IMG/VR virus record: IMGVR_UViG_3300047457_000194
Location: 1-53,261 of that record
Reading direction: 5' to 3' (one strand)
Source: a virus
DNA length: 53,261 nt
Made by a program: the position numbers and the translations under genes. The notes beneath the pieces were generated by a model. It was not told the DNA's origin and did not search any database. It was given only the letters and a program-made list of their open reading frames with translations. Numbering within the stretch: position 1 is the first letter of the stretch; each line of letters begins with the position of its first letter. This document shows, one piece after another, positions 29,130-50,121 of the stretch.

Positions 29130-32100
29130 ATGGCGCTTAAAACGATCTACCTAGAGGGCTTCGGCTTGATGGATGTTCCTGCTGAACTCACTGGCAAGGA
29201 ACTTTCAGTCTATGCCTCTAGGGAGGCTCGGAAGCGAAGGGCGGAAGAGTCTGCCGCTGAGGTAACCCAGCAAGCGCAGAAGAAGCCTGAGCCTTCCACC
29301 ATGCAGCAGGCTGCTGGCTTTGCTGCTGGTCTCCCTGCTGGCCTTGCCTCTGGGCTGATTGGGTCTACCCTTGAGGGCATTGGTGGCCTGACTGGCATCC
29401 GCCCGGTGGAAGAAGCTGGCGCTTCTTTCAACGAGTGGGTTCAGGAGAAGTTGAAGCAGGCAGTTGGCGAAGAAGCCGCTGCTTCTGGCGCGTCCCAGGT
29501 GGGTCAGACTATCGGCGGCATTGCTTCGTTCTTTACTCCTGGAGTTGCTGCCAAGGTGCTTGGTGGTGCTGGGAAGCTGGCTAAGGTCGCTCCCTATCTG
29601 AGTACCGCGATGTCCGGTATTCAGGGCGCTGGCGAACAAGTCGAGCGGATGCGGCAGCAGGAAGCCGAGGGTGATCAGATCGATCCCTTGATGCGCCAGT
29701 TGTATGCTGCTGGCGCGGGTGCCGGGACCGCGTTGCTGGAAAACATACCCATCAGCGGACTCGCCAAGTATACTCCGCTCAAGCGTGTGCTGGGTGATAT
29801 CCCAGTCTCCGCTGAGGCTGGTGCGTTTACGAGGGCGATGGATGCGGGTGCCGGGACTATCCTTGGACGGGCGCTTGGGACTGGCGCTGGCGAAGCTGCC
29901 ACTGAAGTAAGCCAGAACGCATTGCAGAACATCATCGAACGCCAGTACAACGAACAGCGCGGCATACTTGAAGGTAGCACTGAGTCTGCTGTGGGTGGAT
30001 TCCTTGCTGGCGCGGCGCTTCAGGGTGGCGCTGATCTGTACCGCGATGTCTACCTGAATAGGAAGAAGTTTGAGGGAGATGTCAAGGCGCTTCGAGGGCA
30101 GCTTTCCGAAGAGCAACTCCCACTCCTTCCGGCTGGAAAGAGAAAAGCGGTTCAGATTCGCGGAAAAGATATCTCCACAGTATTGGGAGAGGAGGATATC
30201 GCAGAGGCAGAAGCTGCTTTCTCTAAGGTCGCTTCTCCGCAAGGAGTCCCGCTCCTTCCTCCTGGCAAGTTTGCTTCTGATGAAGAGGCGCGGAGAAAGA
30301 TTGATGAAGAGATCGAGGCCGCAAAGGTATATGGCCCGACTCCAGACTTATCCTACGCTACACCTGAAGCAATGGCGCGTATCGAGGAGCTCAGGGCTAA
30401 GGAGCAAGCGGACAACGAAGCGATAATCAAGCAGCGTGAACAGGACATCGCTGCGCTGCCGGATTTCCCATCCTACCTTCCTGATCCAAACGTAACGCCG
30501 ATCAGCGAGTGGCCGAAGCCTCAAGTCAAATTGTTTGACCAGTACCTGAGCAAGTTCTCTCCAGAGCAGGCCAAGCTGATTGAGAGCTTCAGCCCTGAAG
30601 AGATGGATTCGTTTATTGAGCGAGGCGTGAAGCGCAAGACCGAATCCGAACAGCAACTGCAAAAGATCCGAGAAGAGCAGGCGGCTCGTATTGCTGCTTC
30701 CCGTAGGGCGGATATCGAGCAGGCTGATGCGATCACTCTCTCGCGGTTCGCAGAGGACTATCAAAAACAGGAAGCCGAAGCGGCTAGGGCAAAGCGCGAA
30801 GAGGAGCTATCTAAGGCCGCTGCCGGGAGGGCTGAAGAGGCTGCGATCAAAAACCTGTATGCGCGTGAGGAGTTCGACAAGTTCGTTGCCGACCGAATCG
30901 CAGCAAAGAGCAAGATCGAAGAAAGCCAGAGGGTTGCTGGTGAACTGGCGAAAACGAAGTTCGGTAAGCCCCTCGGTGAGTTGAAAGACTCTCAGAAGAT
31001 CCAACTCGCTAGTGAGATCGACGCAATCTCAAAGGAGGCTTCGTTCAGAACTGAAGTCAACAAAGAGATTCCAGAGCTTGGAGACCCCATCTACAAGCTG
31101 CAAAACCGGGTATCTGTAAACTTCTTCGGCACTCAGTACAAGAACCTCCCAGAAGCGAAGCAGGGGATAGTGAACTCTGCTATTGAACGAGGAGAAGGGA
31201 GAACCGTACTTGGCGAAGAGCTTCTGGAAGAGAGAGATTTTGACAAGTACAAGCGGCTCTATAATCGTGACGACTTCCGCGCCGTAAACAAAGAGATGCG
31301 CTCTTTCGTGCGAGACGAGAGTGGGTTTATCCCGGTCACAAAGGACTCCCTGTATTCCGCTGTTAAGTCTGTATCCGAAGACCCTACCAGTACTATCAAG
31401 CCAAATAGAATGGCATCAAACGCCATGTTCAAGCACATGCTTGATCGTGGTGTTATTGTGGACATTGACGGAAAGACCTACCTTAACGAGGAAGCGACTG
31501 GCCCCCGCTATCAGCTTCCTATAAGCAACAATCCAAACATCGAGAGCCAGCAGAGCGCCTTCAAAGCCGAGGAAGCGAAGGTCACGGTTGGTCCAAAAAT
31601 GAGGGATGCTCTTGAGCGGCGCGGACTGTCCGATGTGTTCACCCTGGGTATCGTTGAAAAGATCGAAGATACCCCTGCTCTTGGCAAGTACCTGAATCGC
31701 GTTATTCAGATCGCCGCCGCGCCTGAGGGGAAGGTCCGATCTCTCGACGAGATGATCTCCTCGATGGATCACGAGATCGTCCACGGCATGCGTGCCGCTG
31801 GGCTGTTCACGGACGCCGAGTGGAACCTGCTGACCACTGATTTCAACGCCAACCTGCTAGACGACAAGCAGAAGGAAGCGTACACGCGGATCTACAAAGC
31901 CCAGGGGATGAGCGACCAAGCCATCCAAGAGGCCTTGAACGAGGAAGCTGTCGCTATGAAAGCGGCGCAACTCAACAACGTGGACCCCAAGCGTTTGGAT
32001 CCGAAGTCCTTGTCGCTGATCAATAAGGTCCGCTTCTACCTGGAGTTCGGGCGCAACTCTGCTGCCCTTGGATACAACAGCGCCGAAGACGTGCTGGCTG

Positions 32101-35100
32101 CGATCAAGTCTGGCGAGATTGGCAAGCGTGGGTTTACTTCTGAGTTTGAGAAGGTGGGCGGGAAGGCCAAGCGTGTTGGACGCCAGGAGATCTCTATCGC
32201 CTCTGAGGCTGACAAGTCTTCCGGGGTTGAGACCAAGGTCTACGGAGAAGAGGATGAGGAAGGGGTAACGGACGAGAAGTACAAGCAGGCTCTGTCCGGG
32301 TTGGCCTCCAAGTTCGACCGCAAGACCCCGGTGAAGTCCCCTCGTCAGTACTTGATCCAGCAGATGGATGTCGCGCCGGAAGATGTTGATGCCCTGGTCA
32401 AGGGCATGATCAAGAATAAAGATCTTGTCAAAGTTGGCGGCGCTCTCTACATCTCCGATAGGGCTAGGCGGTCTATTGAAACTTCATCCGCCGAAAAATT
32501 GCCAGTCGATAAACCGAAATACGAAATCAAAGGCGAATACAGTCTGGAAGAAGACCCTCAGTTTTCATCCTATGTAAAGTTGGCGCTGGAAGGGCTGGAT
32601 ACCAAGCAGCTTGGGGCGCAAAGCTACTCCCTGTACAGGTCCATAAAGGACGGAAGCGCGCAGTTCGATATCCCTGAATCCTTCAAGGAGTCCCTCACTC
32701 CAAGTCTGGTCCGCTCTTCTGTGGACCGAATCCTTAGAATACCTGCGACTCGCCCTGGAGAGGTTCAGTCTAAGACCGCCGCGAAATCCAGATCGGCGTT
32801 GCTTGATAGAGATCAGCTAAACTCCGCGACCCCAGAGCAACGAGAGTCAATTATCTCTGACATCAATCGGTGGATAAATGCAAGGGGGAACTCGCTTTAT
32901 CACGCTGCCTTCCCTGACAACGCGATTGAAATCCTGCGTGGCGGTGGGATCAAATCTTTCGCCGGGGAGAAAGGCGTAAGCCTCTCTCGCGTGCCAAGCA
33001 TATTCACTGGGTTCTCTCAGTCTAGCAGGCCAGTGTCGTTTGTCATCGACTCAAAGTCCGTTCAGACCAAGCCGATAAACGAAGGCGTTTACACGGGCGT
33101 CGAGAGCTTGATCAATAGAGACGGAAGAACAACAAAGGAAATCAATAGCTGGCTATCCAAGTTGAAATCTGATGGATACTCCGTTCCCAGTGATTCTTCG
33201 TTTTTGTTTACTGGAAAGAATAAATACTCCATTTCAGAAGAAGGGTTCGTTCAGGCCATGTCTTCGCTTGGGGTTCCTGTTGAATCTTCTTCTCGCTTTA
33301 TCTCTGCCAGAAAGATCTTGGATCAGCCCAGAGAGCTAGCCTCAGCCAATCTCAAGAGGGTTCCTGGGCAGAAGGTTGACTTCGACGCCTCGTTTCAAAA
33401 AGCTGACTACTTGAATTTTGAGTTCGAGCAGCGCAGTAGGGGCAAGAGCGTTTACGATATCCCTTCATCCAGCATCATTGGCGTCATATACGATCCCAGG
33501 TACATGGACAAGAAGGAGATAAGCGCACTCAAAAAAGCAGCTACAGAGGCTGGAATTCCTGTGCGTGCGTATGAAACCAGCGAGGAGCTAGAGGAAGAGA
33601 GCAATATCTTTGGACCTGAAACAAGGTCTGGAAGGACGGTCAGTAGGGCTAGGGTGTCCGAAGTTCCAGCAGGGAAGCCGCTGTTTCAACTTCCACCCTC
33701 TGGTGCTGAAAGGGTTAAGGGAGACGCTCTCGTTAACCCAAGCGGAGCGTCACCCACCAAGCCATTCTTCACCAAGAAGTCTGCGAAGAACCCGCTGGAA
33801 GGAGCAAGTGACCTGATCAAGGGCAACTTCTCCTCGTTCCGGCAGAAGCTGATTGACCGCTATGACCCTGTCCGGTTGATGGCAATTGAGGCGTACTCCA
33901 AGACTGGCGACAAGAAGTACCTCAGCGCCGCTGAAGGTTCATACCACGCACTCCTGTTCTCCGATAAGGCACAGGACATGGCTCTTGCTGGGCTGGAGAA
34001 TGGAGGCTTCACGACTGAAGGAAGTATTATCCTCGCTGCCGACAACGAGAAGATCGCTCCACTGAAGATCTTCCAGTCACTGAGAGAGAAAGGCAAACTC
34101 GATGCCTTCTTCAATTTTGCGTACGCAAAGCGGTACAAGGCCCTGAAGGAGAACGGGAAAGACCCTGGCGGGGTGATCAGCGAAGCCGATGTCGAAAGGG
34201 AATACAAGCGGTGGGAGAACGACAACGACATCAACACTGCCATCGAAAACTTTAAGGCATACAATGACAACCTTGTGGACATGCTTCGCAAGAGTGGTTT
34301 CATCTCCGCAGGTGAGGCTAAGGCGTGGAAGTCTGCCTTCTACATTCCCTTCTACCGCATCCCGACCGTGATGGAAGGAGATGTGGATACGGGTGAGGTG
34401 GACATCCCGCGCCTCAGTTCGCAGATCACAAACCTCTCCAACCCCAAGGGGCTTACGGGGCGCGATCTCCCGGTCAATGACGCGATTGAGAACGTCATTG
34501 CCAACACCTATTACGTCATCGGCACCGCTGCCAAGAACTTCGCAGCTCGTAAGGTAGCGAGAGATGGTGTTATCACTGGATACATGAAGGAGATCGAGAA
34601 GCCTGGAGACGCGCAGCAGGGGTACAAGGTAATTACCGTCAGAGAAGGCGGCATCAAGAAGCATTACGAAGTAAAGGATGCTCTTCTGCATGACGCTGTA
34701 GCCAAGTCCGGGTTCCCTGTTCAGGACGTTCTGCGGGGTATGGGCTGGTTCACAGAGAAGCTGCGGCGCGGAACCACACTGTCGCCTACCTTCATCGTTC
34801 GCAACACTCTGCGTGACGCTATTCAGTCCTGGATCCTTGGTCAGTACGGAAGCACGTTCCTGCCTCCGTTCAAAGAGATCACCAAAGGAATCCAGATGGC
34901 GTACCAGAACTCTCCCGAGTTCAAGGCGCTGAAGTCTGCTGGCATCTCTAGCTCTGGGTTGCGGAAGAAGACCCTGCAAGAGACAGCTAAAGAGATGCGC
35001 CGTAAGATTGGCGAAGAGCAGCAGGGAGTTATTGCTCAACTTGGTGGGATCTTCAATAAGGGAATCGAGGTTCTTGAAAGAGGATCTGAGATCTCCGAAG

Positions 35101-36329
35101 CCAGCACGAGAACCAAGGTCTATCAGGATGTCCTGGCGAAGACTGGTGATCGCGCAGAGGCACTGTTCGCTGCCATGGAGACCATCAACTTCTCCAGGAA
35201 GGGTAGCTCCCGTGGCTTGCAGATTGGCATGGCTCTGCTTCCGTTCTTCAACGCCAGAATCCAGGGCATGGATGTCTTCTACCGCACGATGAAGGGCGAG
35301 AAGATGATGCCCAATCAGATGTCGGCTGACATGAAGGGCGCGGCAGTCACTCGCTTCATGTACTTCTCTGCCCTCTCCGCGCTCTACGCGCTGTACATGT
35401 CCAACCACCCCGCCTGGGAGAATGCCACCGACGAGGAGAAGGACGGGAATATCTTCCTTCCCGTGGACTTCATTCCCGGAATCAAAGAGGGGACGGTTCT
35501 CAAGTTCCCGATTCCGCAGGAGCTTGGCCTGATCGGCAAGATGCCTGCCGAGCGCATCGTCACCATGATCAAGGGGCGCTCTGACGGTGGTGACCTGATT
35601 GACTCCCTCCAGAGAGCGGTGTTCGATACCCTGTCGTTCAACCCAATTCCTCAGGTATTCCTTCCTGGGATCGAGGCGATTGCCAACTTCGACTTCTACT
35701 CCCAGAGGCCGATTGAGAATCAATATCTCGCCAGCCTGCTTCCAGAAGAACGATACACTGAGTACACCACTGGCGTAGCCAAGGCAATCGGCAGGGCAAC
35801 GGAAGACACTGCCGCCGCTGTATCACCTGTGATGGTGGATCATTTAATCAGGGGCTACTTCGGCACTCTCGGTGCCTACTCTGCCGACATTCTTGGCAGA
35901 CTCATAGAGGAAGGAAGCGATGCCCCCGCGCCGGAACGGATGCGCTTCTCTGAGCCGTACCTCCTCCCCGTCATCGGCCCCCTCTTCAAGTCTGCTGAAG
36001 GCAAGAAGATGGTCGAGGATCTGTACATGATCGACGAGGCTGCGAAGATGGCGGCGTCCACCCTCAAGGCATACTCTGAGAATGGGCGCGAACTATCTGA
36101 AGCCAAGGAAGACGAGCTTTACCAGCTTGCCGAGATTGGCGAGGAAGTCCGCCCGGTCATTGAGCAGATCCGCGAACTCAACCGACAGAAGCGTGCCATT
36201 CAAAGCGACACGGAGATGTCCTCCAGTGAAAAGAGAGACGAACTCAACGAGATCCAGAAAGAGATCGTCTCTCTTGCCGCCGAGGTGAACGACCTTAAGA
36301 AGCAGATTCCGATTCGCTTGCGGAAGTAG
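29130..36329 (+). CDS. Giant internal virion polyvalent protein with zincin motif and LPD38-like end
   Basis: A 2399-residue multi-domain protein thought to be packaged and injected. In order: Ala/Gly-rich apolar membrane-active region (about 50-290), charged coiled coils (about 300-700), a zincin-type HEIVH motif at 881-885 with downstream Glu 938/939 as candidate third ligand, a helical region, a compact domain at about 1240-1490 (SLYHAAFPDNAIEILRGGGI, GVSLSR, SFVID, EFEQRSRGKSVYDIP) that could be an ADP-ribosyltransferase-like fold, and a C-terminal LPD38-like domain (LLPFFNARIQGMD near 2039). No transglycosylase motif was seen. The polyvalent design is known in phages and conjugative elements; each enzymatic call here is inference. 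Confidence 0.8.
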   Translation: MALKTIYLEGFGLMDVPAELTGKELSVYASREARKRRAEESAAEVTQQAQKKPEPSTMQQAAGFAAGLPAGLASGLIGSTLEGIGGLTGIRPVEEAGASFNEWVQEKLKQAVGEEAAASGASQVGQTIGGIASFFTPGVAAKVLGGAGKLAKVAPYLSTAMSGIQGAGEQVERMRQQEAEGDQIDPLMRQLYAAGAGAGTALLENIPISGLAKYTPLKRVLGDIPVSAEAGAFTRAMDAGAGTILGRALGTGAGEAATEVSQNALQNIIERQYNEQRGILEGSTESAVGGFLAGAALQGGADLYRDVYLNRKKFEGDVKALRGQLSEEQLPLLPAGKRKAVQIRGKDISTVLGEEDIAEAEAAFSKVASPQGVPLLPPGKFASDEEARRKIDEEIEAAKVYGPTPDLSYATPEAMARIEELRAKEQADNEAIIKQREQDIAALPDFPSYLPDPNVTPISEWPKPQVKLFDQYLSKFSPEQAKLIESFSPEEMDSFIERGVKRKTESEQQLQKIREEQAARIAASRRADIEQADAITLSRFAEDYQKQEAEAARAKREEELSKAAAGRAEEAAIKNLYAREEFDKFVADRIAAKSKIEESQRVAGELAKTKFGKPLGELKDSQKIQLASEIDAISKEASFRTEVNKEIPELGDPIYKLQNRVSVNFFGTQYKNLPEAKQGIVNSAIERGEGRTVLGEELLEERDFDKYKRLYNRDDFRAVNKEMRSFVRDESGFIPVTKDSLYSAVKSVSEDPTSTIKPNRMASNAMFKHMLDRGVIVDIDGKTYLNEEATGPRYQLPISNNPNIESQQSAFKAEEAKVTVGPKMRDALERRGLSDVFTLGIVEKIEDTPALGKYLNRVIQIAAAPEGKVRSLDEMISSMDHEIVHGMRAAGLFTDAEWNLLTTDFNANLLDDKQKEAYTRIYKAQGMSDQAIQEALNEEAVAMKAAQLNNVDPKRLDPKSLSLINKVRFYLEFGRNSAALGYNSAEDVLAAIKSGEIGKRGFTSEFEKVGGKAKRVGRQEISIASEADKSSGVETKVYGEEDEEGVTDEKYKQALSGLASKFDRKTPVKSPRQYLIQQMDVAPEDVDALVKGMIKNKDLVKVGGALYISDRARRSIETSSAEKLPVDKPKYEIKGEYSLEEDPQFSSYVKLALEGLDTKQLGAQSYSLYRSIKDGSAQFDIPESFKESLTPSLVRSSVDRILRIPATRPGEVQSKTAAKSRSALLDRDQLNSATPEQRESIISDINRWINARGNSLYHAAFPDNAIEILRGGGIKSFAGEKGVSLSRVPSIFTGFSQSSRPVSFVIDSKSVQTKPINEGVYTGVESLINRDGRTTKEINSWLSKLKSDGYSVPSDSSFLFTGKNKYSISEEGFVQAMSSLGVPVESSSRFISARKILDQPRELASANLKRVPGQKVDFDASFQKADYLNFEFEQRSRGKSVYDIPSSSIIGVIYDPRYMDKKEISALKKAATEAGIPVRAYETSEELEEESNIFGPETRSGRTVSRARVSEVPAGKPLFQLPPSGAERVKGDALVNPSGASPTKPFFTKKSAKNPLEGASDLIKGNFSSFRQKLIDRYDPVRLMAIEAYSKTGDKKYLSAAEGSYHALLFSDKAQDMALAGLENGGFTTEGSIILAADNEKIAPLKIFQSLREKGKLDAFFNFAYAKRYKALKENGKDPGGVISEADVEREYKRWENDNDINTAIENFKAYNDNLVDMLRKSGFISAGEAKAWKSAFYIPFYRIPTVMEGDVDTGEVDIPRLSSQITNLSNPKGLTGRDLPVNDAIENVIANTYYVIGTAAKNFAARKVARDGVITGYMKEIEKPGDAQQGYKVITVREGGIKKHYEVKDALLHDAVAKSGFPVQDVLRGMGWFTEKLRRGTTLSPTFIVRNTLRDAIQSWILGQYGSTFLPPFKEITKGIQMAYQNSPEFKALKSAGISSSGLRKKTLQETAKEMRRKIGEEQQGVIAQLGGIFNKGIEVLERGSEISEASTRTKVYQDVLAKTGDRAEALFAAMETINFSRKGSSRGLQIGMALLPFFNARIQGMDVFYRTMKGEKMMPNQMSADMKGAAVTRFMYFSALSALYALYMSNHPAWENATDEEKDGNIFLPVDFIPGIKEGTVLKFPIPQELGLIGKMPAERIVTMIKGRSDGGDLIDSLQRAVFDTLSFNPIPQVFLPGIEAIANFDFYSQRPIENQYLASLLPEERYTEYTTGVAKAIGRATEDTAAAVSPVMVDHLIRGYFGTLGAYSADILGRLIEEGSDAPAPERMRFSEPYLLPVIGPLFKSAEGKKMVEDLYMIDEAAKMAASTLKAYSENGRELSEAKEDELYQLAEIGEEVRPVIEQIRELNRQKRAIQSDTEMSSSEKRDELNEIQKEIVSLAAEVNDLKKQIPIRLRK

Positions 36330-38538: not shown

Positions 38539-39011
38539 CCTCTCTCCTTCTCAATTGCTGTTATCCCTACGCCAATTGCCGCCCACACATCCTTCGACGC
38601 CCTGTACAGCATCCCGCCCTTCTTCGTTACGCCGACTCCATACATAGACTCGTACTTGTCGATGATGGCCTGCCGGATATTGGCATCCTTGGCGCGTGGG
38701 TTCCCGCACAAGTGCAGCTTTACCTCGCGCCGGAATACTCTCCCCACTCTCTCGTGCTGATCCATGGATACCTCCATGAACCTGCCGACCCACACGCATG
38801 TCTCAAACACACTGGCACCAACCGCCATGCCGTACGATGCGATCATCTCGATGCGTATGTCGTGGCAAGAAAGCTGTCTGCATAGGCTGCGTATCGTGTA
38901 GTTGTCTGCCTTCTGGAAGGACATGACTCTCAGGTCTTTTCGATGAAGGATTGCGTATGCTGATTCTATTGGGCCTGGATCAATTGCTAAAACCGTTGAT
39001 GCGTATGGCAT
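38535..39011 (-). CDS. RuvC-like Holliday junction nuclease
   Basis: A 158-residue RNase H-fold nuclease. The opening strand carries LAIDPGPIESAYA with Asp11; Glu55 follows in RIEMIASYG; Asp109 and Asp141 (KDVWAAIGVGITA) complete a DEDD-type acidic set. This is the usual layout of phage RuvC-type resolvases that trim branched DNA before packaging. It overlaps the recombinase gene by 32 bp in a recombination operon. Confidence 0.85.
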   Translation of the reverse strand: MPYASTVLAIDPGPIESAYAILHRKDLRVMSFQKADNYTIRSLCRQLSCHDIRIEMIASYGMAVGASVFETCVWVGRFMEVSMDQHERVGRVFRREVKLHLCGNPRAKDANIRQAIIDKYESMYGVGVTKKGGMLYRASKDVWAAIGVGITAIEKERG

Positions 39012-39819
39012 TCACTGTCTCCTTTGTGAACTCAGGTGTGAACTTGGCGTACACCTTCTCTGTTATAGCACTACTGGAGTGACCCAGCAGTTTGCTGACT
39101 CTCAGTATTGGCACACCAGAGCTAACTAGGTTCGTTGCCACGCTGTGTCGAATGATGTGCGGTGTGATCGTGATTGGCAGACCAGCGGCGACCATCAACT
39201 TGCGCCACTGGTAGTTCAGCGACATCGGCCTCCTGCCATTCTGGGCGACGACCAGCTTATCGCCATCCAGAACTTGATGCTTCTTCAGGTATTCGTACAA
39301 GTCGTCGTTGATTGAAACATCGGCCACACACTTCTGCCTGGACTTCCTGTTGGCGCTGAAGTAGATGCAGCGACCGTCCAGGTCAATGTCCCTCCAGCGG
39401 AGGGAGATGACTGCGCCGGATCTCTGCCCAGTATTGCAGAGCAGCATGCAGTACATCTCCATCCACTGTCCGAACTTGAAAGCATGGTTTAGCACACTGC
39501 CCATCTGATCCCATGTGATCCACTGCTTTCTCGGCGCGGACTCCTTAGGCAGTTCGATGTGCGGCTTGGTCTTTATCTGCCCACACTTCCATGCGGTATT
39601 GATAGCAGCGACCAGGGCCTGAAGATCTCGCCGGATCGTAGAGGACGACAGCCTCGCCAACCCCTTGGTGGCCTCCCGAATAACGGAAGGCCTGAGGTTG
39701 TCTACGAGGATGCCGTCGAGTGCTTTCAGGTGCCGATGTGCTAGCTCCTGTCTTTTCCAGAAGAGAATGTCGTCGCTACATTCTCTCCTGTACAACTCCC
39801 AAACATCTCCCACTAGCAT
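38980..39819 (-). CDS. Tyrosine recombinase (integrase or resolvase)
   Basis: A 279-residue site-specific recombinase. The catalytic set is complete: Arg133 (GQRSGAVISLRW), Lys159/163 (NRKSRQK), His221 and Arg224 (HIIRHSVATN), His247 (LLGHSSSAI) and Tyr257 (EKVYAKF). A core-binding domain fills residues 1-95; no separate arm-binding domain is evident. Could integrate the phage or resolve dimers of a circular episome. No attP core was found by eye. Confidence 0.9.
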   Translation of the reverse strand: MLVGDVWELYRRECSDDILFWKRQELAHRHLKALDGILVDNLRPSVIREATKGLARLSSSTIRRDLQALVAAINTAWKCGQIKTKPHIELPKESAPRKQWITWDQMGSVLNHAFKFGQWMEMYCMLLCNTGQRSGAVISLRWRDIDLDGRCIYFSANRKSRQKCVADVSINDDLYEYLKKHQVLDGDKLVVAQNGRRPMSLNYQWRKLMVAAGLPITITPHIIRHSVATNLVSSGVPILRVSKLLGHSSSAITEKVYAKFTPEFTKETVNAIRINGFSN

Positions 39820-40117: not shown

Positions 40118-40804
40118 TTACTTGAGGTGTTTGGTGGAGTTGCTAAAGGCGGACATGACATCATTCTCACGATCCGCGAAATGAATCTTGATCTGGCCGA
40201 TCTCGGGAGTGTAGCGCCGCCACACCTGCTTGGCCTCTTCCCTGGTGGTGCAGTGCGACAGTTCCTCCTTCACTTGCTCGATGAAGGCATCAACATTGAT
40301 CGACGGCGCTTCAGGCTTCGGTGCTTCCTGCTTCGGTTGCACCATCGGCTTGACCTGCTGCCGCTGTGGCTCGAAGATGCGATCTTCCTGGGTCTTGTCG
40401 TCGCGCTCCGGGTCATCGCCAGTCTCAAGCTGGAAGGTCTTGAGCAGGAAGTACTTGTTCGCCCCGGTCAGCGCCTTGTAGATTCCCTTGTCCCCGATCA
40501 CGCCCTTGCTGGAGCGGTCGTTACCGCAACCAACGAAGTGGCAAACGATCTCCTCTCCTGAGGAATGGATGATGCGATACCGAACCTTCACCGTAGTGTT
40601 CCCGAACTCGTCGGGTTGTGTATGCTCCACCACATCACTAATAATCACCAACTCGTTGGCGATTAAGTGAGGGCGCAAAGCATTGAGCGCGTCACCTTCA
40701 GTGGCGTACTTGTATCCATGGAATTCGTTCTTGCCTGCCTTCTGCACAAACGATACTCCAGCCATCGTATTGATGATGGCCTTGGATATGTTGCTAGTCT
40801 GCAT
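40118..40804 (-). CDS. ERF-family single-strand annealing protein
   Basis: A 228-residue recombinase. The conserved ERF core includes GYKYATEGDALNALRP, a beta run (VKVRYRIIHSSGEEI), RSSKGVIGDKGIYKALTGANKYFLLK and TFQLETGDDPERD. A Pro/Gln linker (about 150-175) leads to a short C-terminal domain. An ATG at 40810 is possible, but 40804 has better spacing (7 bp) to GGGAG. It pairs with the exonuclease gene, which it overlaps. Confidence 0.9.
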   Translation of the reverse strand: MQTSNISKAIINTMAGVSFVQKAGKNEFHGYKYATEGDALNALRPHLIANELVIISDVVEHTQPDEFGNTTVKVRYRIIHSSGEEIVCHFVGCGNDRSSKGVIGDKGIYKALTGANKYFLLKTFQLETGDDPERDDKTQEDRIFEPQRQQVKPMVQPKQEAPKPEAPSINVDAFIEQVKEELSHCTTREEAKQVWRRYTPEIGQIKIHFADRENDVMSAFSNSTKHLK

Positions 40805-41723
40805 ATACATCGTCTCCCTTTTGTCTGGTTGCTATCATTACCAATCTCTCCCTTTCTCGTTGATCACAATTCCTTGCCACGCCACAGTAGTTCGCCTCGC
40901 ACTTCTTGGGTGCGCCGTATCTGATGGCGACGATGGCGTTGCCAAGCTTCTCTGCGTGTTCCTCTGCCTGCTCGAAGGTGTCGTGAACCTTGACGGCACG
41001 CTTCTTTCCCTTCGGCACGACAGCGTACCTGTCCGCGTCTCTCCACTGTTCCTCGTATGTGCAGTCGGGCAGGGTGTCTCCCACCATCCAGTCTGCCTCC
41101 GCATCCTGGTGGACCTTCACCCTCTGCTTCATGTACGCCTCCTGCTGAGACACAGGCCACAGGCGGATCTCGTATACCTTGACGGCGCACTCATCGGGCT
41201 TGATCCTCTTGAAGATATTCCGCTTGTGGTCGCGCAGGACGGCAACGACCCGTGCCTTCGTGACCCGCTTGCCCGTGCATTTGTATACGAGGTAGGCGTA
41301 GCAGTTGATCTGCTTCTCCCACTCGCCGCTGTACCCCTTTGCAACCTTGGTCGTGGTCGTGACCTTCCAGTCGTAGATCCAGATCGAACCGTCAGGCTGC
41401 GGCACCTGGAGATCGATCTGACCAGACACCACCCACCCTCCAATCGTCGTGTAGTACCTCTCTTCCACGATGTAGGATGGATCGTACTGGGACAATATGT
41501 TCTGCGCGTGAGAGTGCCACGCCGTACCCAGTGATGTCCACAGCCTGTCGATCACGTCTTCTTCAGAACCACTCTTCTCCAGCAGCCTCACTCTCGGAGC
41601 AGCCATCAGCCCCGTCACCGAGGCATTCGCTCGGCCCTTCGTGTACATGTCGGCAGTGAGGACCGCTGCCACTGGTTCCGGCAGGTTGTGCCGATTGCTG
41701 TACGATGTTGTAGATTGCGTCAT
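40794..41723 (-). CDS. PD-(D/E)XK exonuclease, Cas4/RecB-like
   Basis: A 309-residue nuclease, likely the 5'-3' exonuclease partner of ERF. Motifs: helix with LGTAWHSHA (His70), GQIDLQV (Asp104) and IYDWKVT (Asp118-x-Lys120), then the QINCYAYL helix. C-terminal Cys residues (KKCEANYCGVARNC, about 284-297) and possibly one upstream suggest an Fe-S cluster as in Cas4/AddB. The gene starts after GAGG and overlaps the RHH gene by 161 bp. Confidence 0.85.
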   Translation of the reverse strand: MTQSTTSYSNRHNLPEPVAAVLTADMYTKGRANASVTGLMAAPRVRLLEKSGSEEDVIDRLWTSLGTAWHSHAQNILSQYDPSYIVEERYYTTIGGWVVSGQIDLQVPQPDGSIWIYDWKVTTTTKVAKGYSGEWEKQINCYAYLVYKCTGKRVTKARVVAVLRDHKRNIFKRIKPDECAVKVYEIRLWPVSQQEAYMKQRVKVHQDAEADWMVGDTLPDCTYEEQWRDADRYAVVPKGKKRAVKVHDTFEQAEEHAEKLGNAIVAIRYGAPKKCEANYCGVARNCDQRERERLVMIATRQKGDDVYAD

Positions 41724-41862: not shown

Positions 41863-41898
41863 TACTCAATTGGGCGGCTCCTGTTGTACCATTTGGGA

Positions 41899-43647
41899 AT
41901 GCGACCAACGCCGGAATTGAGAGAACTGGCAGATCAGTTCATAGAGAGTGGGCGCGGATCATGGCGAACCATCTGTCCTGAGTGTAGCCCAAATCGCAGG
42001 CACCACAACGCACACGACCCAGTGCTTTCATGGGACCACGGAGATCGCGGCCCTGTCTTCTATTGCCACCACTGCGGTATTAAAGGAGCCGTTAGCAAGA
42101 TGAACCTCGAAGACTTTGATTCTTTATTTGACGATCAGCCGAGTCAACCTGAGTTGACACTGCCTGAACCTGGAGAAAGCGGCATCCGGCTTCAGATGGA
42201 ACACATCGACTACCTGAAGCGCCGTGGAATCTCAATCAGTACAGCCCTGAAGGCGGAACTGTTTTCTGTGCGGAAGTTCTTTCGTCAAGGCGGCGACCTC
42301 GACTGCATTGCCTTCCCTTATTTCGATATGGATGGCATGCTCGTGTCGTCCAAGTACCGTGCAGTGACGACCAAGGCCTTCTCGCAGGACGCTGGTGCGG
42401 GTGGGTTGCTGTTCGGACTGAAGCAGTCCTTCGACTTGAGGGAGCCACTCGTCATTTGCGAGGGGGAGATCGACGCGCTGTCGATGTGTGAGGCGGGGAT
42501 CTTGAACTGGGTCTCCGTTCCGTCCGGCGCTCCCGCTAAAGGGGAGAAGAACAACTCCCAGCGGTTCAGTTGGATCTCCGAACTGGAGGAGTTCCTGGGG
42601 AAGTTCAAGTCCTTCGTTCTGGCTACCGACAATGACGGACCCGGCAAGGCCCTGCAAGAAGAGTTGGGGCGCAGGCTGGGTCGGTCCAAGTGCAGCACCA
42701 TTAAATACCCAGACGATTGCAAGGATGCGAACGATGTTCTGGTGAAGCATAGTATCTCCGTATTGGCGAATGTCGTGTATGGTGCGAAGCCAATGCCCAT
42801 GACATCCCTCTATACCGCCGACCACTACTTCGATCAGGTGATGGATCTCTTCACCAAGGGTGACGGCAAAGGGGAAAGCACTGGCTTCTCTGGCGTCGAT
42901 GAATTGTACACCGTTGCGCGAGGGCAGATGACGGTTGTGACTGGCATTCCATCGAGCGGCAAGTCAAACTTCCTGGACCAGATCATGGTGAACCTGGCGC
43001 GGAATCAGGGGTGGAGGTTTGCGATAGCCAGCATGGAGAACGAACCAGCGAAGCATATCGCGAAGCTGTCTGAAATGTATGTACGCAAACCCTTCTTCCA
43101 TCAGTGGCCTGGATGTATGAGCCTGGATGAAGCGAGGGGCGCAGCCGGGTGGTGCCGGGACCATTTCAACTTCATCGACTTCAGTTCGTCGAGGGACCTG
43201 CCCACACTGGACAGCCTGCTGGATAGAGCGAATGCTGCCGTCCTTAGATTTGGAATCGACGGTTTGGTGATTGATCCGTACAACTGCATCGAAGTCAGTA
43301 GGACAAAAGAGATGAACGAGACGGAAGCGGTGAGCAACATGCTGTCTCGTGTCTCTGCATTTGCCAAGGCATCTAATATCCACGTCTGGTTTGTGGCGCA
43401 CCCGCAGAAGATGTTGCGAGAGTTCTCTTCGGCCAATGCAGTCCCTGGTGGATACGACATCTCAGGATCGGCGCACTGGTTCAATAAGACCGATGTGGGG
43501 CTGACCGTACACCGCAAAGACATGGACGGGTACGTCGAGATCCACTGCTGGAAGTGCCGCTTCAAATGGGTGGGGCGGCAGGGGATGACGCGCCTGAAGT
43601 ACGACATCCCCACCAGCACCTACTACGAACTACCGAAGGAGACCTAA
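41899..43647 (+). CDS. Primase-helicase, T7 gp4 / Twinkle-like
   Basis: A 582-residue replicative protein that combines primer synthesis and hexameric helicase. A zinc ribbon (C26, C29, C56, C59), a TOPRIM primase domain (VICEGEIDALS near 185-195; LATDNDGPGKA near 241-251) and a RecA-type helicase with Walker A GIPSSGKS (349-356) and later LVIDPYNCI are seen. A TTG start at 41884 would add five residues. It is the only replication gene on this strand, and no polymerase was recognised, so it must work with host polymerase. Confidence 0.95.
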   Translation: MRPTPELRELADQFIESGRGSWRTICPECSPNRRHHNAHDPVLSWDHGDRGPVFYCHHCGIKGAVSKMNLEDFDSLFDDQPSQPELTLPEPGESGIRLQMEHIDYLKRRGISISTALKAELFSVRKFFRQGGDLDCIAFPYFDMDGMLVSSKYRAVTTKAFSQDAGAGGLLFGLKQSFDLREPLVICEGEIDALSMCEAGILNWVSVPSGAPAKGEKNNSQRFSWISELEEFLGKFKSFVLATDNDGPGKALQEELGRRLGRSKCSTIKYPDDCKDANDVLVKHSISVLANVVYGAKPMPMTSLYTADHYFDQVMDLFTKGDGKGESTGFSGVDELYTVARGQMTVVTGIPSSGKSNFLDQIMVNLARNQGWRFAIASMENEPAKHIAKLSEMYVRKPFFHQWPGCMSLDEARGAAGWCRDHFNFIDFSSSRDLPTLDSLLDRANAAVLRFGIDGLVIDPYNCIEVSRTKEMNETEAVSNMLSRVSAFAKASNIHVWFVAHPQKMLREFSSANAVPGGYDISGSAHWFNKTDVGLTVHRKDMDGYVEIHCWKCRFKWVGRQGMTRLKYDIPTSTYYELPKET

Positions 43648-44690
43648 GACGTTGCCAGCATGATTGCGAGGGCCTTGGCCTTGGTGGTAGCGATCAGGTC
43701 GTCGCACTTCGTTCTGGCGCGGAGATATACCCTTGCAGGCTCTTGGCCCTTGACGATGGAGGCTGGCCGCTTCGCCACAGTATTATCGGTGATGCTGCGG
43801 AGACTGTCCGTGCAGATGTATCCATAGAAATTGAGGTTGCGATTCAGTAGCCTGACGACATACGTCTCGCCAATCACCTCCTCGATCACGCCGCAGAAGC
43901 AGTTGTTGATTCCGTATACGGGGATCACATTGTGATCCGAGAGGTTGATCTTGTCCAGGCTGATCTGTTTAACGACCAGTCCGCTGTGGTTGTACGTCTT
44001 GATCTCCTTCTTGTGCCAGTCGTACGTCCACCCTTCCTTCGAGCTTGAATGTTGCGGTGCGCCGTTCCTGCCCAGGCTACCGCAAGACTGGTGCCATGTA
44101 TTGATGAACGAGTCAAGCTTCCAGTCGATGTGGCTGTTGCCCTTGCGCGTCCGCTGGTACATCCGGTAGCGAGCGGTGAACCGATCCTCGCGCCGAATAT
44201 AGGTAATGTGGCTCGTGTACTGGTGGAATGCGTGTGGGCGGAATGTCTTAGGCTTTCTCGAGTATGGATAACCACCCGTGATCTCGTCATACCTCTGCTC
44301 AAAGGAGCCGCAGTAGGACTTGAAGTCTGGAACATTGAAGAGCATGGTGCTAGAGTTGACTGCATACTTCAGTTCAGACACGAACTCACGGAGGGCCGAC
44401 ATGCGGACATGCACGAGAGACGATGGGAACACTTCGAGGAAGCGATTCACCATAGCTCGAAAGGCATCCTTGCCTCTGACGACATTGATTCCTTCGAGGT
44501 AGCGGCAACTCCTGATAACGAAGCTGGCCGGAGACGCAGTGTACACCATGCGAATCCTGGTCTTCTTGTCCACGAAGGAGTAGTACTGCTGCGAATCCTT
44601 GGGGACATCGCCCTTCACAACATAAGCCTGGAGTTCGGGGTCGTACCATTCGACCCCTTCCGCCATCATCTTCCTGAAATCGATCTTCAT
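43644..44690 (-). CDS. Hypothetical protein in the MoxR-VWA operon
   Basis: A 348-residue protein of unknown family, with AAGGAGAGAGAG before its ATG. It has aromatic-rich segments (DFKSYCGSFEQRYDEITGGY, RFTARYRMYQRTRKGN, INTWHQSC) and a C-terminal alpha/beta part (VIPVYGINNCFCGVIEEV). It follows the VWA gene by 10 bp, so it is likely in the same operon. Its stop overlaps the convergent primase-helicase stop by 4 bp. Confidence 0.6.
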   Translation of the reverse strand: MKIDFRKMMAEGVEWYDPELQAYVVKGDVPKDSQQYYSFVDKKTRIRMVYTASPASFVIRSCRYLEGINVVRGKDAFRAMVNRFLEVFPSSLVHVRMSALREFVSELKYAVNSSTMLFNVPDFKSYCGSFEQRYDEITGGYPYSRKPKTFRPHAFHQYTSHITYIRREDRFTARYRMYQRTRKGNSHIDWKLDSFINTWHQSCGSLGRNGAPQHSSSKEGWTYDWHKKEIKTYNHSGLVVKQISLDKINLSDHNVIPVYGINNCFCGVIEEVIGETYVVRLLNRNLNFYGYICTDSLRSITDNTVAKRPASIVKGQEPARVYLRARTKCDDLIATTKAKALAIMLATS

Positions 44691-44700
44691 CTCTCTCTCC

Positions 44701-45873
44701 TTAGACCGTCTTGATCTTTACGACAGTGCCGAACGGCACGTTGGTGTTGTTGTAGTCGCCGTACTGCATCCAGATGACAGGCACGCCGGGGTCAGGACCG
44801 AAGTCGTAGCAGGCCATGTCCGTCAGATAGACGAAGCACTTGGGCTTGATGTCTTTGTCCTGCGCGTACTGAAACACCGGGGAGAACCGGGTGCCACCGG
44901 ACTGGACCTTCTGCCCGTCGAGTTCCATCGGGCGACCGGGCTTGTACTGGTCGTGCTTGTACACGTCATAGTCGCAGTAGAGAACATGCGTCTCCTCGGG
45001 GCGAACCTTCGTAAGGAAGTGGTTGATCATCCCCAGGAAGTTCTCCAACACATCATGCGGCACAGAACCGGAGGTATCCATGCCGACGACCAGCTTGCCA
45101 ACGCCATCCCGCAGGACGGAAGGCAGGTACATGTCCTGGCCCATGAAGCGGCGCGAGGGCTTCTGCCATGTGTAGTCGCGGGGGTAGATGGGTTGCATGA
45201 ACTTGGCGAATAGGTGGCGGTAGTCCTCCTCGGGTTCACGCGCCTTGGCGAGGAGATCCTTGAGCGCACCGGGTAGCTTGCCGCAGAACTTGGCGTGGCT
45301 CTCAGCCTGCGCCACCTTGACCTGGATCTCTTCGGCCAGCGCCGCCTTCTCCTCCTTCGTCATGCCATCGGTCGGCAGGACATCGCCCTGCGAGAAGTCT
45401 TTGTCGCCGCCCGGTCCGTTGCCCTGACCACTGCCGGATCCGCCCTTGCGCTTCTGCTCAGGCAGCATGTCGTAGATCTGTTCCCACGACAAGCCCTTGT
45501 ACCTGGGATCGATCAGGCAGTCCTTTGGAAGCTGGTATCCACACTCATGGATCAACAGATTGATGGCGTAATCCATCGCGATGTTGGCCTGCATGCGGTT
45601 GCGGTCGCCCAGGCGCAGCGGGTGCATCAGCGCAACGTGCATGATCTCGTGGATGGAGACGGCCTTAACTTCTTCGGCGCTCATCTCAGCCACGAACTTA
45701 GGGTTGTAGTAGACGGCCTTGCCATCGGTCGCCATGGTGGGGCAGCGTTCGTCAGCCACCCAGTTCATGCGGAGGGCGAGAGAGCCGAAGAACGGCTCCT
45801 GCCCAATCGCCATGCGGACATTCTGCCGCACGATCTTCGATGCCGCTTCGGCTGTGATAGTCACGGTGTTCAT
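44701..45873 (-). CDS. Metallopeptidase-like plus VWA protein (DUF2201-like)
   Basis: A 390-residue protein. The N-terminal domain has HEIMH (75-79) followed by His84 and Arg87 (HVALMHPLR), the zincin-like pattern of DUF2201-type proteins. A Gly-rich linker (about 143-157) joins a helical middle to a C-terminal VWA domain with a complete MIDAS: DTSGS (266-270), Thr328 (SGGTRF) and Asp352 (YLTDM). Such proteins work with MoxR AAA+ ATPases to remodel protein targets. It is in an operon with one here. Confidence 0.85.
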   Translation of the reverse strand: MNTVTITAEAASKIVRQNVRMAIGQEPFFGSLALRMNWVADERCPTMATDGKAVYYNPKFVAEMSAEEVKAVSIHEIMHVALMHPLRLGDRNRMQANIAMDYAINLLIHECGYQLPKDCLIDPRYKGLSWEQIYDMLPEQKRKGGSGSGQGNGPGGDKDFSQGDVLPTDGMTKEEKAALAEEIQVKVAQAESHAKFCGKLPGALKDLLAKAREPEEDYRHLFAKFMQPIYPRDYTWQKPSRRFMGQDMYLPSVLRDGVGKLVVGMDTSGSVPHDVLENFLGMINHFLTKVRPEETHVLYCDYDVYKHDQYKPGRPMELDGQKVQSGGTRFSPVFQYAQDKDIKPKCFVYLTDMACYDFGPDPGVPVIWMQYGDYNNTNVPFGTVVKIKTV

Positions 45874-45893
45874 GGTTGTCTCCTGTGTTGTGT

Positions 45894-46772
45894 TTACGCG
45901 AACATGCCGCGCATCTGGTTGACGATCTGATTGGCTTCGTCGCTGATCTGTTGGGCGCAGTCGGCCACATCGATACGGGCGGCGTCATTCTCTCGCAGCA
46001 CTTCAGCGGTGTACTGGCAAAGCTGCTCGTCGATCCGGCGCGAGATGTCGGCCAGGCGGGAGTCGCCAGCGACATTCAGCTTCGGGAGTAAGCCAGCAAG
46101 TTCCACGGTGTTCTCTATCAGGGAGTCACGGAAAGAACCTTCGCGGGTTCCCGTATAGTTCTTTAACCGTTCTGCGACATGCTGCGTCTGCTTCTGGATG
46201 CGCTCGAAGAGATCGAGGACGGCGGCGTGGTAGTTGTTGGCGAGTCGCTGCTGCATCGACTCCTGCATCTGCCTCAGTACGTCCTTACTGAGCGACACGC
46301 GGAAGTCCTGCGAGTCAGGGACAGGCGAGAAGCTAACAGACCAGTCGAACTTCGACCGGATCTCGTGCATCGACGGGAACTCCGAAGGATCGAACAACCC
46401 GTTGAGTCGATAACGCGCCTCTTCGATTACGTCCGGGTAGTTCTGCACGAACTTGTCGAGTGCCGACTCGTGGATGGAGTGATACTTCTGCATGCCCTCC
46501 TGGTAGGCGACGAAGTTGGCGACAGGCAGGATGCGGATGCCCTCGGCATCCAGCCACGGCAACGTCTGCGCGTAGTGGAAGGACCGCGCCGCAGAGATGT
46601 TCGAGGACAGCTCCGTCAGATACTTCTTCGCGGCAAGCTGCTTGTTGAAGCGGCCCACTTCGCCGTTCGTGTTGTGGTTCTGTTCCACCTCGGCGGTGGC
46701 TTTCTTGTCGTACTTTCTGGCGGTCCACTGCGACACTGCGAAGCGGACGAGGACGGCTTTATCGTTAAGCAT
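45894..46772 (-). CDS. DUF3150-like helical protein
   Basis: A 292-residue, mostly helical protein between MoxR and VWA genes. The start (MLNDKAVLVRFAVSQWTARK) and layout resemble DUF3150 proteins that accompany MoxR-type ATPases in some phages. It has few obvious catalytic residues; the C-terminal part (ISRRIDEQLCQYTAEVLREN) is coiled coil. A CAGGAGATCAATC site precedes the ATG. Two palindromic sites lie in the 98-bp gap upstream. Family call is moderate. Confidence 0.6.
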   Translation of the reverse strand: MLNDKAVLVRFAVSQWTARKYDKKATAEVEQNHNTNGEVGRFNKQLAAKKYLTELSSNISAARSFHYAQTLPWLDAEGIRILPVANFVAYQEGMQKYHSIHESALDKFVQNYPDVIEEARYRLNGLFDPSEFPSMHEIRSKFDWSVSFSPVPDSQDFRVSLSKDVLRQMQESMQQRLANNYHAAVLDLFERIQKQTQHVAERLKNYTGTREGSFRDSLIENTVELAGLLPKLNVAGDSRLADISRRIDEQLCQYTAEVLRENDAARIDVADCAQQISDEANQIVNQMRGMFA

Positions 46773-46807
46773 GATTGATCTCCTGAGATGTTGGTGTGTA
46801 TTGGTTT

Positions 46808-46822
46808 GTCCAAACTTTGGAC
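46808..46822. promoter_or_regulatory. 15-bp palindrome (copy 1)
   Basis: GTCCAAACTTTGGAC, perfect 7-bp arms around C, between the MoxR stop and the DUF3150-like gene. Confidence 0.7.
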
Positions 46823-46831
46823 AGTTGGGAT

Positions 46832-46846
46832 GTCTAGAAACTAGAC
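46832..46846. promoter_or_regulatory. Related palindrome, GTCTAG type
   Basis: GTCTAGAAACTAGAC, 6-bp perfect arms, centre 24 bp from the neighbouring palindrome. It extends as GGG-TGTCTAG and CTAGACA-CCC with one mismatch. Confidence 0.6.
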
Positions 46847-46870
46847 ACCCCTTGTCTGATAGAGCGCCGA

Positions 46871-47899
46871 TTAGAACATCAGCTTCGCGTAGGTGGGCTT
46901 GCTGATCATGTCGAGGATGGGCTTCGACGTGACGGCGGCAGTGTCGCGCTTGCACACATCCTTGAGGAACAAGCAGCCGTACTCCGGGGCCAGCCGCTGC
47001 ATGTAGGCGGCGATGGGCTTACTGTTCTGCGGGTTCCAGTTCGACGACAGGTAGATCGCCGTAGCGAAGGACGCCGACAGGTCGGTCGGGACAGCCACGC
47101 CACCAGGATCGGCGCAGATCGCGGAGATCTGGGGCAGCGACTGCCACATCCGCAGGAAGCCAAGGAACTCCAAGCCAGTGCCTTGCCCAATGCAACCCTG
47201 GATCATCTCGCCAGCGATCTCTCGGTCGGGGTCCTGGTCAAGGATGCGGGAGAGGAACTCGACAGAGCGAGGGGTGCAGAACGCGAAGTCATTCTTGTGC
47301 GGCTGCTGCACAAGCAGGTCCTTGCGGTAGGCGAAGAACGCCCGGAGTTCGGGGCGGATGGACTTGGTGATCGGCTTCGCAGGGACGACCTGCGCCGTCA
47401 CATTGCTGTCGCCAGCGGACGCCCACTCCAACCACGAGTCGAACGCCGACTCCAACTGGATGTGGAGGAAGCGGTTCATGAGCGGGGCCGGGGGCTGGTT
47501 GTAGTTGCCGCCGTCCTGGGCGCGATTGCCCGTGGCGCAGATGTACGCGCCGTCAGGCATCCGGTAGTCGCCAAGCTGCCGCTCCAGGACCAGCTGATAG
47601 AGGGCGCACTGCACCGACATCGGGGCGTCAGGCAGTTCCTCGATAGCGACGAGGGTCGCGCCGTTCTTGGGTAGCCAGTTCGGCGTGGCGCGGTAGCAGA
47701 CGCCGTCCTTGATATAGGGGATGCCCATATCCACCGGGTCCATCATCGTCGGGCGCACGTCAACGTGTTCCCGCTTGAGGATCGAGGCGACCTTGCGAAT
47801 GATCGAGGACTTGCCAATCCCGGCCTGCCCCCACACCCAGACGGGTACCTCGGCATTGATCGCGACCTGAAGCGCCTTCATGAAGTTCTGTGCGTACAT
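46871..47899 (-). CDS. MoxR-family AAA+ ATPase
   Basis: A 342-residue ATPase. Walker A GQAGIGKS (24-31), Walker B LVAIEE (83-88), sensor 1 ICATGN (Asn125), and an arginine-finger-like PLMNRF (Arg143) are all seen. MoxR-type ATPases form hexamers that use VWA-protein adaptors to open or activate targets. A promoter (47945-47974) lies 45 bp upstream and AAGGAGACTACG precedes the ATG. It is the first gene of the operon. Confidence 0.9.
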   Translation of the reverse strand: MYAQNFMKALQVAINAEVPVWVWGQAGIGKSSIIRKVASILKREHVDVRPTMMDPVDMGIPYIKDGVCYRATPNWLPKNGATLVAIEELPDAPMSVQCALYQLVLERQLGDYRMPDGAYICATGNRAQDGGNYNQPPAPLMNRFLHIQLESAFDSWLEWASAGDSNVTAQVVPAKPITKSIRPELRAFFAYRKDLLVQQPHKNDFAFCTPRSVEFLSRILDQDPDREIAGEMIQGCIGQGTGLEFLGFLRMWQSLPQISAICADPGGVAVPTDLSASFATAIYLSSNWNPQNSKPIAAYMQRLAPEYGCLFLKDVCKRDTAAVTSKPILDMISKPTYAKLMF

Positions 47900-47944: not shown

Positions 47945-47974
47945 ACTGTATGTAATCCAGTGTGCAATTGTCAA
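47945..47974 (-). promoter_or_regulatory. Sigma70-type promoter for the MoxR operon
   Basis: On the minus strand a perfect TTGACA (47974-47969) is followed by 18 bp and TACAGT (47950-47945, four of six). It is in a 77-bp noncoding gap. Confidence 0.55.
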
Positions 47975-50067: not shown

Positions 50068-50080
50068 TGTGTTCTCCTTT

Positions 50081-50095
50081 GTCTAGAATCTAGAC
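50081..50095. promoter_or_regulatory. Related palindrome, GTCTAGA type
   Basis: GTCTAGAATCTAGAC, perfect 7-bp arms around A. It is 16 bp centre-to-centre from the next palindrome, in front of the gene at 49747-50067. Confidence 0.65.
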
Positions 50096-50096
50096 A

Positions 50097-50111
50097 GTCC
50101 AAATTTTGGAC
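50097..50111. promoter_or_regulatory. 15-bp palindrome (copy 2)
   Basis: GTCCAAATTTTGGAC with ACTGTTTTA flanks. Upstream of the gene at 49747-50067 and next to the hairpin at 50122-50141. Confidence 0.75.
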
Positions 50112-50121
50112 TGTTTTATTG

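Follow-up and report, generated by a model that had tools for sequence, protein, structure and literature searches.

What do four neighboring minus-strand genes do that sit between the primase-helicase gene and the early region of small genes in the genome of an uncultured tailed phage, and do all four belong to one set? The genome is the IMG/VR virus record IMGVR_UViG_3300047457_000194, which is referred to in its full length of 53,261 bases as the window (Table 1). A first-pass annotation had placed four open reading frames (ORFs) at 43644-47899 and read them as one set taking up about 8% of the genome. All four are present there on the minus strand, and they cover 4256 of 53261 bases (8.0%). 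Three of them, coding for a MoxR-type AAA+ ATPase, a DUF3150-family protein and a DUF2201 protein that joins a zincin-like domain to a von Willebrand factor A (VWA) domain, form one widely conserved three-gene module, called the trio below. The fourth gene, coding for a protein of 348 amino acids (aa), probably stands apart from it.

A five-sequence DUF3150 alignment retrieved 479 relatives from IMG/VR, of which 80 were kept, 77 of them new. As these loci were fetched through DUF3150, the counts describe what accompanies DUF3150 and not how often the MoxR-VWA pair goes without it; several loci are near-copies, and 40 DUF3150 proteins are left at <85% identity. Profiles for MoxR, DUF3150 and VWA matched together in 72 of the 77 new loci, and the five incomplete ones end at contig ends near the missing gene. 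Together with the window and the loci L002, L003, L004 and L009 this gives 77 complete loci, in which the gene order is MoxR-DUF3150-VWA in 73, DUF3150-MoxR-VWA in two and MoxR-VWA-DUF3150 in another two. Among 34 loci with a mean identity of 37-40%, the pairwise distances of the three proteins correlate (rho 0.59, 0.73, and 0.68; permutation maxima 0.24-0.28), which shows that the trio genes travel together. Between the window and L004, identity amounts to 91% over the stretch that includes MoxR to VWA and to 81% for its right side, and the trio has a synonymous substitution rate (dS) of 0.22-0.47, compared to 0.70-0.99 for the primase-helicase, exonuclease and Erf genes, so the trio has moved as a block. 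Phages with the trio have packaging modules with terminases of several families (phrog_38, phrog_15, phrog_9); the trio thus crosses phage lineages.

The MoxR-type protein matches phrog_1297, described as 'ATPase', with an E-value of 8.4e-69 (233 bits). Its match to the Pfam model AAA_3 (E 0.0078, 16.5 bits) lies under the cut-off of 27, and public relatives are annotated as MoxR-like ATPase. Relatives were found in 765 of 50,697 phage records. The residues which we take to be Walker A, sensor 1 (N125), the arginine finger (R143) and sensor 2 (R211) are conserved in 40, 41, 40, and 41 of 41 MoxR proteins, respectively. The first position of the presumed Walker B motif is D in 35 and E in six of them, and the window protein reads E-E. 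A MoxR protein with all motifs, as had been described, is therefore found with respect to the former four, but Walker B departs from it.

The zincin-VWA protein matches the Pfam models DUF2201_N (9.6e-45, 153.7 bits, cut-off 23.2) and the VWA-like DUF2201 (7.8e-20, 71.7 bits, cut-off 26.4), i.e., PF13203 and PF09967. Its N-terminal zincin-like motif HExxHxxxxH is located at residues 75-84 and the metal ion-dependent adhesion site (MIDAS) DTSGS of the C-terminal VWA domain at 266-270, so that the proposed junction of a HEIMH zincin with a DTSGS VWA domain is borne out by both motifs and both domains. All 43 nonredundant zincin-VWA proteins share H75, E76, H79, H84, N97, and D101, and 42 of them keep D266/S268/S270 (DxSxS). 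An HExxH motif with a third conserved ligand points to a zincin-type site in the window protein. Relatives occur in 580 of the 50,697 phage records. The protein also matches phrog_1314, which PHROGs labels 'HNH endonuclease'. This label is apparently wrong; no HNH domain was detected by Pfam in the window member, which has DUF2201_N and VWA instead. The same label recurs for this family in many GenBank/RefSeq phage records, e.g., NC_023719, NC_071039, and OZ196215.

The product of the middle gene was counted from an ATG, and a longer ORF with a GTG start overlaps the MoxR gene. Its sequence has no match to PF11348 at E-values up to 1, nor up to 10. This model is matched by 28 of 42 aligned relatives of the helical protein at E up to 1 (best 7.1e-7), so the earlier label 'DUF3150-like' holds at the level of the family and not for the window sequence by itself. 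The AlphaFold2 model (predicted local distance difference test, pLDDT, 89.9; predicted template modeling score, pTM, 0.83) shows short strands in the N-terminal part and a C-terminal bundle of long helices. Among BFVD structures it is most similar to a phage 'DUF3150 domain-containing protein', with a template modeling score of 0.85. A Foldseek search against the PDB gave a best E-value of only 0.24, and sequence searches of the PDB returned nothing useful. The VIA-align matches fall mostly on residues 158-292, with a best Z of 11.2, a value within the range given for helical models that have no clear counterpart. No solved relative was found in these searches, and the fold is not claimed to be new. 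Relatives were found in only three of the 50,697 phage records, all of them cyanobacterial phages of 65,014 bases and among them the Synechococcus phage MinM2, and a divergent query found the same three.

The trio is not confined to phages. In 72,556 plasmid records, relatives of the window DUF3150 protein were found in 44 and those of a Cupriavidus DUF3150 protein in 42, of which 16 are conjugative, 8 mobilizable and 18 non-mobilizable. The VWA gene lies at most 150 bases downstream of DUF3150 in 40 of these 42 records; one exception is a split gene, and the other is without VWA among the matches listed (60 of 109). On the Burkholderia plasmid NZ_CP015038 (163111-167560) a broken copy of the trio is present, with DUF3150 in two pieces and VWA 2.8 kb off. 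In the four plasmid stretches that were opened (20-25 kb each), the profiles of MoxR, DUF3150 and VWA match in all four, with MoxR upstream and intact motifs; in Simplicispira a gap of 3.6 kb separates MoxR from DUF3150. Profiles for terminase, portal, Erf, exonuclease and integrase of the window types, which other types could escape, found no match in these stretches, and their annotations list no terminase or portal either. In the Burkholderiales plasmids pBMC401 and pRK1-1 the trio adjoins the PRTRC operon, and in pBMC401 it has PRTRC on one side and the type IV secretion genes on the other. A tree of 55 DUF3150 proteins puts the plasmid sequences at two supported places among the viral ones, one with L051 and L086 (support 96/90) and one with the Synechococcus phage MinM2 (100/99). 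The L051 record holds a terminase; none was found by four models in that of L086. A scan of 84,980 genomes yielded 13 loci, mostly in metagenome bins, two of them with phage terminase and portal; the scan is incomplete because it used a single 9-residue pattern, carried by 67 of the 82 proteins of the set. That many unrelated uncultured phages and also plasmids carry the trio with an unchanged order of genes suggests a function for mobile DNA in the host cell rather than one in the building of a single kind of virus particle.

Concerning its surroundings in phages, a terminase match to at least one of four models was obtained in 26 of 43 trio records (21 at E up to 1e-5); the models included PHROG terminase families, since the window-type terminase escaped PF03237. 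Of these 26 records, 24 encode the terminase on the strand opposite the trio. Single-sequence searches in 41 loci found a DNA polymerase on the strand of the trio in five of five cases and a primase-helicase on the opposite strand in seven of seven. A convergent primase-helicase neighbors the trio in the window, L002, L009, L019, L020, L023, and L026. Some trio loci carry an integrase, and no VirB4-type protein was found in the 12 records searched.

The set had also been credited with a TTGACA promoter of its own and with forming one operon. A sigma-70-like site is present upstream of MoxR (Table 1), and L003 and L004 have retained its TTGACA; taken by itself the consensus is weak, since scanning gave six promoter-like sites against 4.4 in shuffled sequences. 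The single operon is uncertain because two 17-base palindromes, TGTCCAAACTTTGGACA and TGTCTAGAAACTAGACA, lie between MoxR and the next gene. The former has six window matches with up to three mismatches, compared to a mean of 0.09 in shuffles. The palindromes GTCCAAANTTTGGAC and GTCTAGANTCTAGAC recur, partly paired, before early genes of the window and of L003, including the gap between MoxR and DUF3150. Copies are located in the window at 46807-46847, 50080-50112, 50898, 51431, 51939, and 52595, in L003 at 325-1637, and in L002. MinM2 has nine copies of a different, unrelated palindrome, GGTTCAGNCTGAACC, near early genes, again including places before MoxR and DUF3150. Formation of RNA stem-loops was considered and rejected: in imperfect copies six mispairs are G-T in the sense of the transcript versus ten A-C, and as G-T is not the commoner one, a DNA operator is the better explanation. 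The palindromes look like a dispersed repressor system with many operators, which would tie the trio to the early genes.

For the 348-aa protein nothing useful was found in Pfam, PHROGs, PADLOC or NCBIfam, and nothing in the 50,697 phage records. Its gene occurs in only six of 82 loci (the window, L003, L004, L009, L019, and L020), and relatives within the same phage group are without it. The VWA gene is followed directly by the primase-helicase in L021, L025, L026, and L027, and by coordinates alike in L022 and L023. A module of four genes was rejected on these grounds, and the 348-residue protein, formerly counted into the operon, is an accessory. The ratio of nonsynonymous to synonymous substitution rates (dN/dS) of its gene is 0.41-0.44 between the window and L003 or L004 and 0.26 between the latter two, compared to 0.05-0.12 in the trio and 0.08-0.11 in primase-helicase, exonuclease and Erf in the same comparisons. 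Its dS is about 1.0 versus 0.2-0.5 in the trio, and its dN is about four times that of the exonuclease gene at equal dS. The contrast of 55% against 95% between this gene and its neighbors is due only in part to fast evolution, because the trio block was recently exchanged between these phages. The structure model is poor (pLDDT 65.9, pTM 0.43). The gene is probably an accessory under different selection, separate from the conserved module, and its dN/dS, about four times that of core genes nearby, together with its confinement to a small phage clade makes it a candidate for a host-directed function.

A MoxR/VWA-peptidase pair is already known from phages, namely as gp24/gp25 of N4 and from jumbo phages, and the neighboring MoxR and zincin-VWA genes of the window agree with it. 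Gp24 and gp25 of the N4-like phage G7C match the MoxR and VWA profiles with 1e-67 and 3.7e-80; this pair belongs to the Schitoviridae core genes, the table of which has the entry 'Unknown' for gp24 and 'vWFA domain' for gp25. However, the G7C locus has no DUF3150 gene. The pair of the group 2.2 jumbo phages likewise consists of MoxR and a vWA domain fused to an N-terminal metallopeptidase domain, but the available text names no DUF3150 partner (PMC7824862), whereas here a trio is found in mid-size phages and plasmids, opposite the packaging genes. Nine named-phage MoxR-VWA loci (Thermus phiFa, Bacillus G, PA5oct, CRP-7, S-TIM5, Rhizobium TM3_14A, G7C, Vibrio D520, and Acinetobacter XC38) contain both proteins, and a DUF3150 match was never better than E 0.2. 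The closest likeness in arrangement includes MinM2, which has the order MoxR, DUF3150, VWA and a convergent primase-helicase; its helical protein is annotated as DUF3150 and is 31% identical to that of the window. It differs by small extra genes between the three trio genes and by its palindrome, and no relative of the 348-aa protein was found in it. The Burkholderiales plasmids pBMC401 and pRK1-1 share order and intact motifs as well, but are conjugative plasmids with PRTRC and transfer genes as neighbors instead of phage genes. An AAA+ ring and a VWA partner are also combined in cellular MoxR-VWA couples such as NorQ/NorD, yet neither DUF3150 nor a zincin fusion is mentioned in the available part of their description (PMC9976466). 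A prophage-associated island of Lawsonia intracellularis, which is lost on passage, ends with LI0185 (MoxR-like ATPase), LI0186 (hypothetical) and LI0187 (CobT), according to the text available (PMC3716683); judged by this description, it is perhaps the same trio. The accessible text of the CRISPRi-ART paper does not mention MoxR, and the open-licence literature searched, as far as its text was available, yielded no description of DUF3150 as a constant middle gene. The trio adds a constant third part to a pair that N4-like phages have among their core genes, and since plasmids carry the machine as well, it can be tested in simple plasmid systems with no need to grow phages.

A conserved three-gene module with intact metal and MIDAS motifs makes a role in protein remodeling likely, as had been proposed for a host or virion protein; the virion as the general target is weakened by the data given below. 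We tentatively prefer, with somewhat less than even confidence, an early AAA+ remodeling machine of phages and plasmids that acts on an intracellular host protein hindering the element, with the 348-aa gene being separate from it. The MoxR protein would assemble into a hexameric ATPase ring, on which the VWA half of the DUF2201 protein would dock to grip the target via the MIDAS metal, in analogy to NorQ/NorD, where the VWA protein plugs the AAA+ ring and the MIDAS grips the target, according to the available text (PMC9976466). The DUF3150 protein may be a dedicated adaptor or scaffold that provides the choice of target, and the zincin half with its invariant HExxHxxxxH would cut the target once it is pulled open; the machine is probably a protease. 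It would be made from an early, replication-side transcription unit, and its target would be a protein of the host cell that stands in the way of the incoming element. Such a target would explain the carriage by both phages and conjugative plasmids.

Several points weigh against this reading. The host target is a conjecture, and the ATPase activity, the peptidase activity and the interaction of the members are predictions. The E-E of Walker B in the window clade could mean a lower ATPase activity. Viral CobT is said, in the accessible text of PMC8651126, to be mistakenly annotated as a peptidase. The record of the PA5oct ATPase bears a note on electrospray ionization tandem mass spectrometry (ESI-MS/MS), which may mean that the protein was seen in virions, and the terminase lies on the strand of the trio in two of the 26 records, L036 (a weak match) and L049. 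As the nine named-phage loci go without DUF3150, this protein is not needed by all versions. A further-reaching formulation, which we regard as rather doubtful, is that the trio represents an undescribed class of ATP-driven metalloproteases of mobile elements, i.e., phages and conjugative plasmids, which would use DUF3150 as substrate adaptor and dismantle a host barrier protein during establishment, while fast-evolving neighbors like the 348-aa gene would add host-directed functions.

Without any attack on the host, the trio could remodel or mature a replication, partition or transfer protein of the element itself, e.g., a replication initiator or a helicase assembly. ClpX acts in this way on the Mu transposase. 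The convergent primase-helicase in the window and six other loci, the DNA polymerase on the same strand, and the PRTRC and type IV secretion genes on plasmids are in line with this, and so are Vibrio D520 and Acinetobacter XC38, whose MoxR-VWA pairs have a DNA polymerase and a helicase nearby. However, the replication neighbors vary, with a primase-helicase in 7 and a DNA polymerase in 5 of 41 loci, so that no single partner gene is constant, and we judge this explanation unlikely while taking it seriously. A chaperone for virion assembly with proteolytic processing of structural proteins was proposed for the pair of the group 2.2 jumbo phages, with the Acidianus two-tailed virus as precedent in the available text (PMC7824862), and the ESI-MS/MS note on PA5oct would suit it. 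Since conjugative plasmids carry the same machine, in stretches of 20-25 kb where neither terminase nor portal was found, and since 24 of 26 phage records encode the terminase on the other strand, virion building is improbable as a general role; in addition, the packaging modules of trio phages come from several terminase families, and N4 gp24/gp25 are middle genes, as stated in the accessible part of PMC4193335.

Defense of a lysogen or plasmid host against other phages, which the first-pass annotation had also suggested, would make the trio a relative of the ternary MoxR-vWA conflict systems, in which MoxR and vWA are likewise accompanied by a third protein (PMC7159879, as far as its text was available); the presence of the trio on plasmids and in phages, some of which encode an integrase, would agree with that. 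This suggestion did not hold up well and is now given little weight. None of the four genes has a useful PADLOC match, and the MoxR protein reaches 12.6 bits against bpMoxR, with a cut-off of 27. The ternary systems use another third component and other effectors in the text available, whereas the third component here belongs to the DUF3150 family; no VMAP, iSTAND, FtsH or beta-propeller, and thus no published third component of a conflict system, was recognized (VMAP and iSTAND profiles were not run singly), and no effector domain was found besides the zincin. Least probable is a pair of CobST-like subunits that hijack host CobN for cobalamin synthesis, as proposed for paired genes of archaeal and bacterial tailed viruses in the accessible text of PMC8651126. 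An identity with the cobaltochelatase subunits CobS/CobT fails the profile tests, as no cobaltochelatase model is among the Pfam and NCBIfam matches of the MoxR or VWA protein, and the match to phrog_249 ('porphyrin biosynthesis') covers just 48 residues of MoxR at 4.3e-6. Moreover, the N domain keeps the complete HExxHxxxxH in 43 of 43 proteins. Between 36.5 and 53 kb the sole ORF of at least 400 aa is the primase-helicase, so this half holds no ribonucleotide reductase of usual size.

Finally, the structural half of the window contains at 29130-36329 a gene for a protein of 2399 residues, the only PHROG relatives of which are phrog_18222 and phrog_9854, both of unknown function.

Table 1. 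Features located in the window, with positions counted from its first base.
Feature	Position	Strand	Remarks
Terminase	68-1516		
Portal	1812-4373		
Integrase	38980-39819		Pfam PF00589
Erf	40118-40810		
Exonuclease	40794-41723		
Primase-helicase	41884-43647		
348-aa protein, family unassigned	43644-44690	-	accessory neighbor of the trio
DUF2201 protein with predicted zincin-like and VWA domains, 390 aa	44701-45873	-	third trio gene; Pfam
DUF3150-family protein, 292 aa from ATG	45894-46772	-	middle trio gene; structure and PF11348 matches of relatives
Palindrome TGTCCAAACTTTGGACA, operator-like	46807-46823		about 35 bases before the DUF3150 gene
Second palindrome TGTCTAGAAACTAGACA	46831-46847		adjoins the first; same pairing at 50080-50112
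MoxR-type AAA+ ATPase, 342 aa	46871-47899	-	first trio gene; phrog_1297 match
Sigma-70-like promoter TTGACA-N18-TACAGT	47945-47974	-	upstream of MoxR; 10/12 consensus

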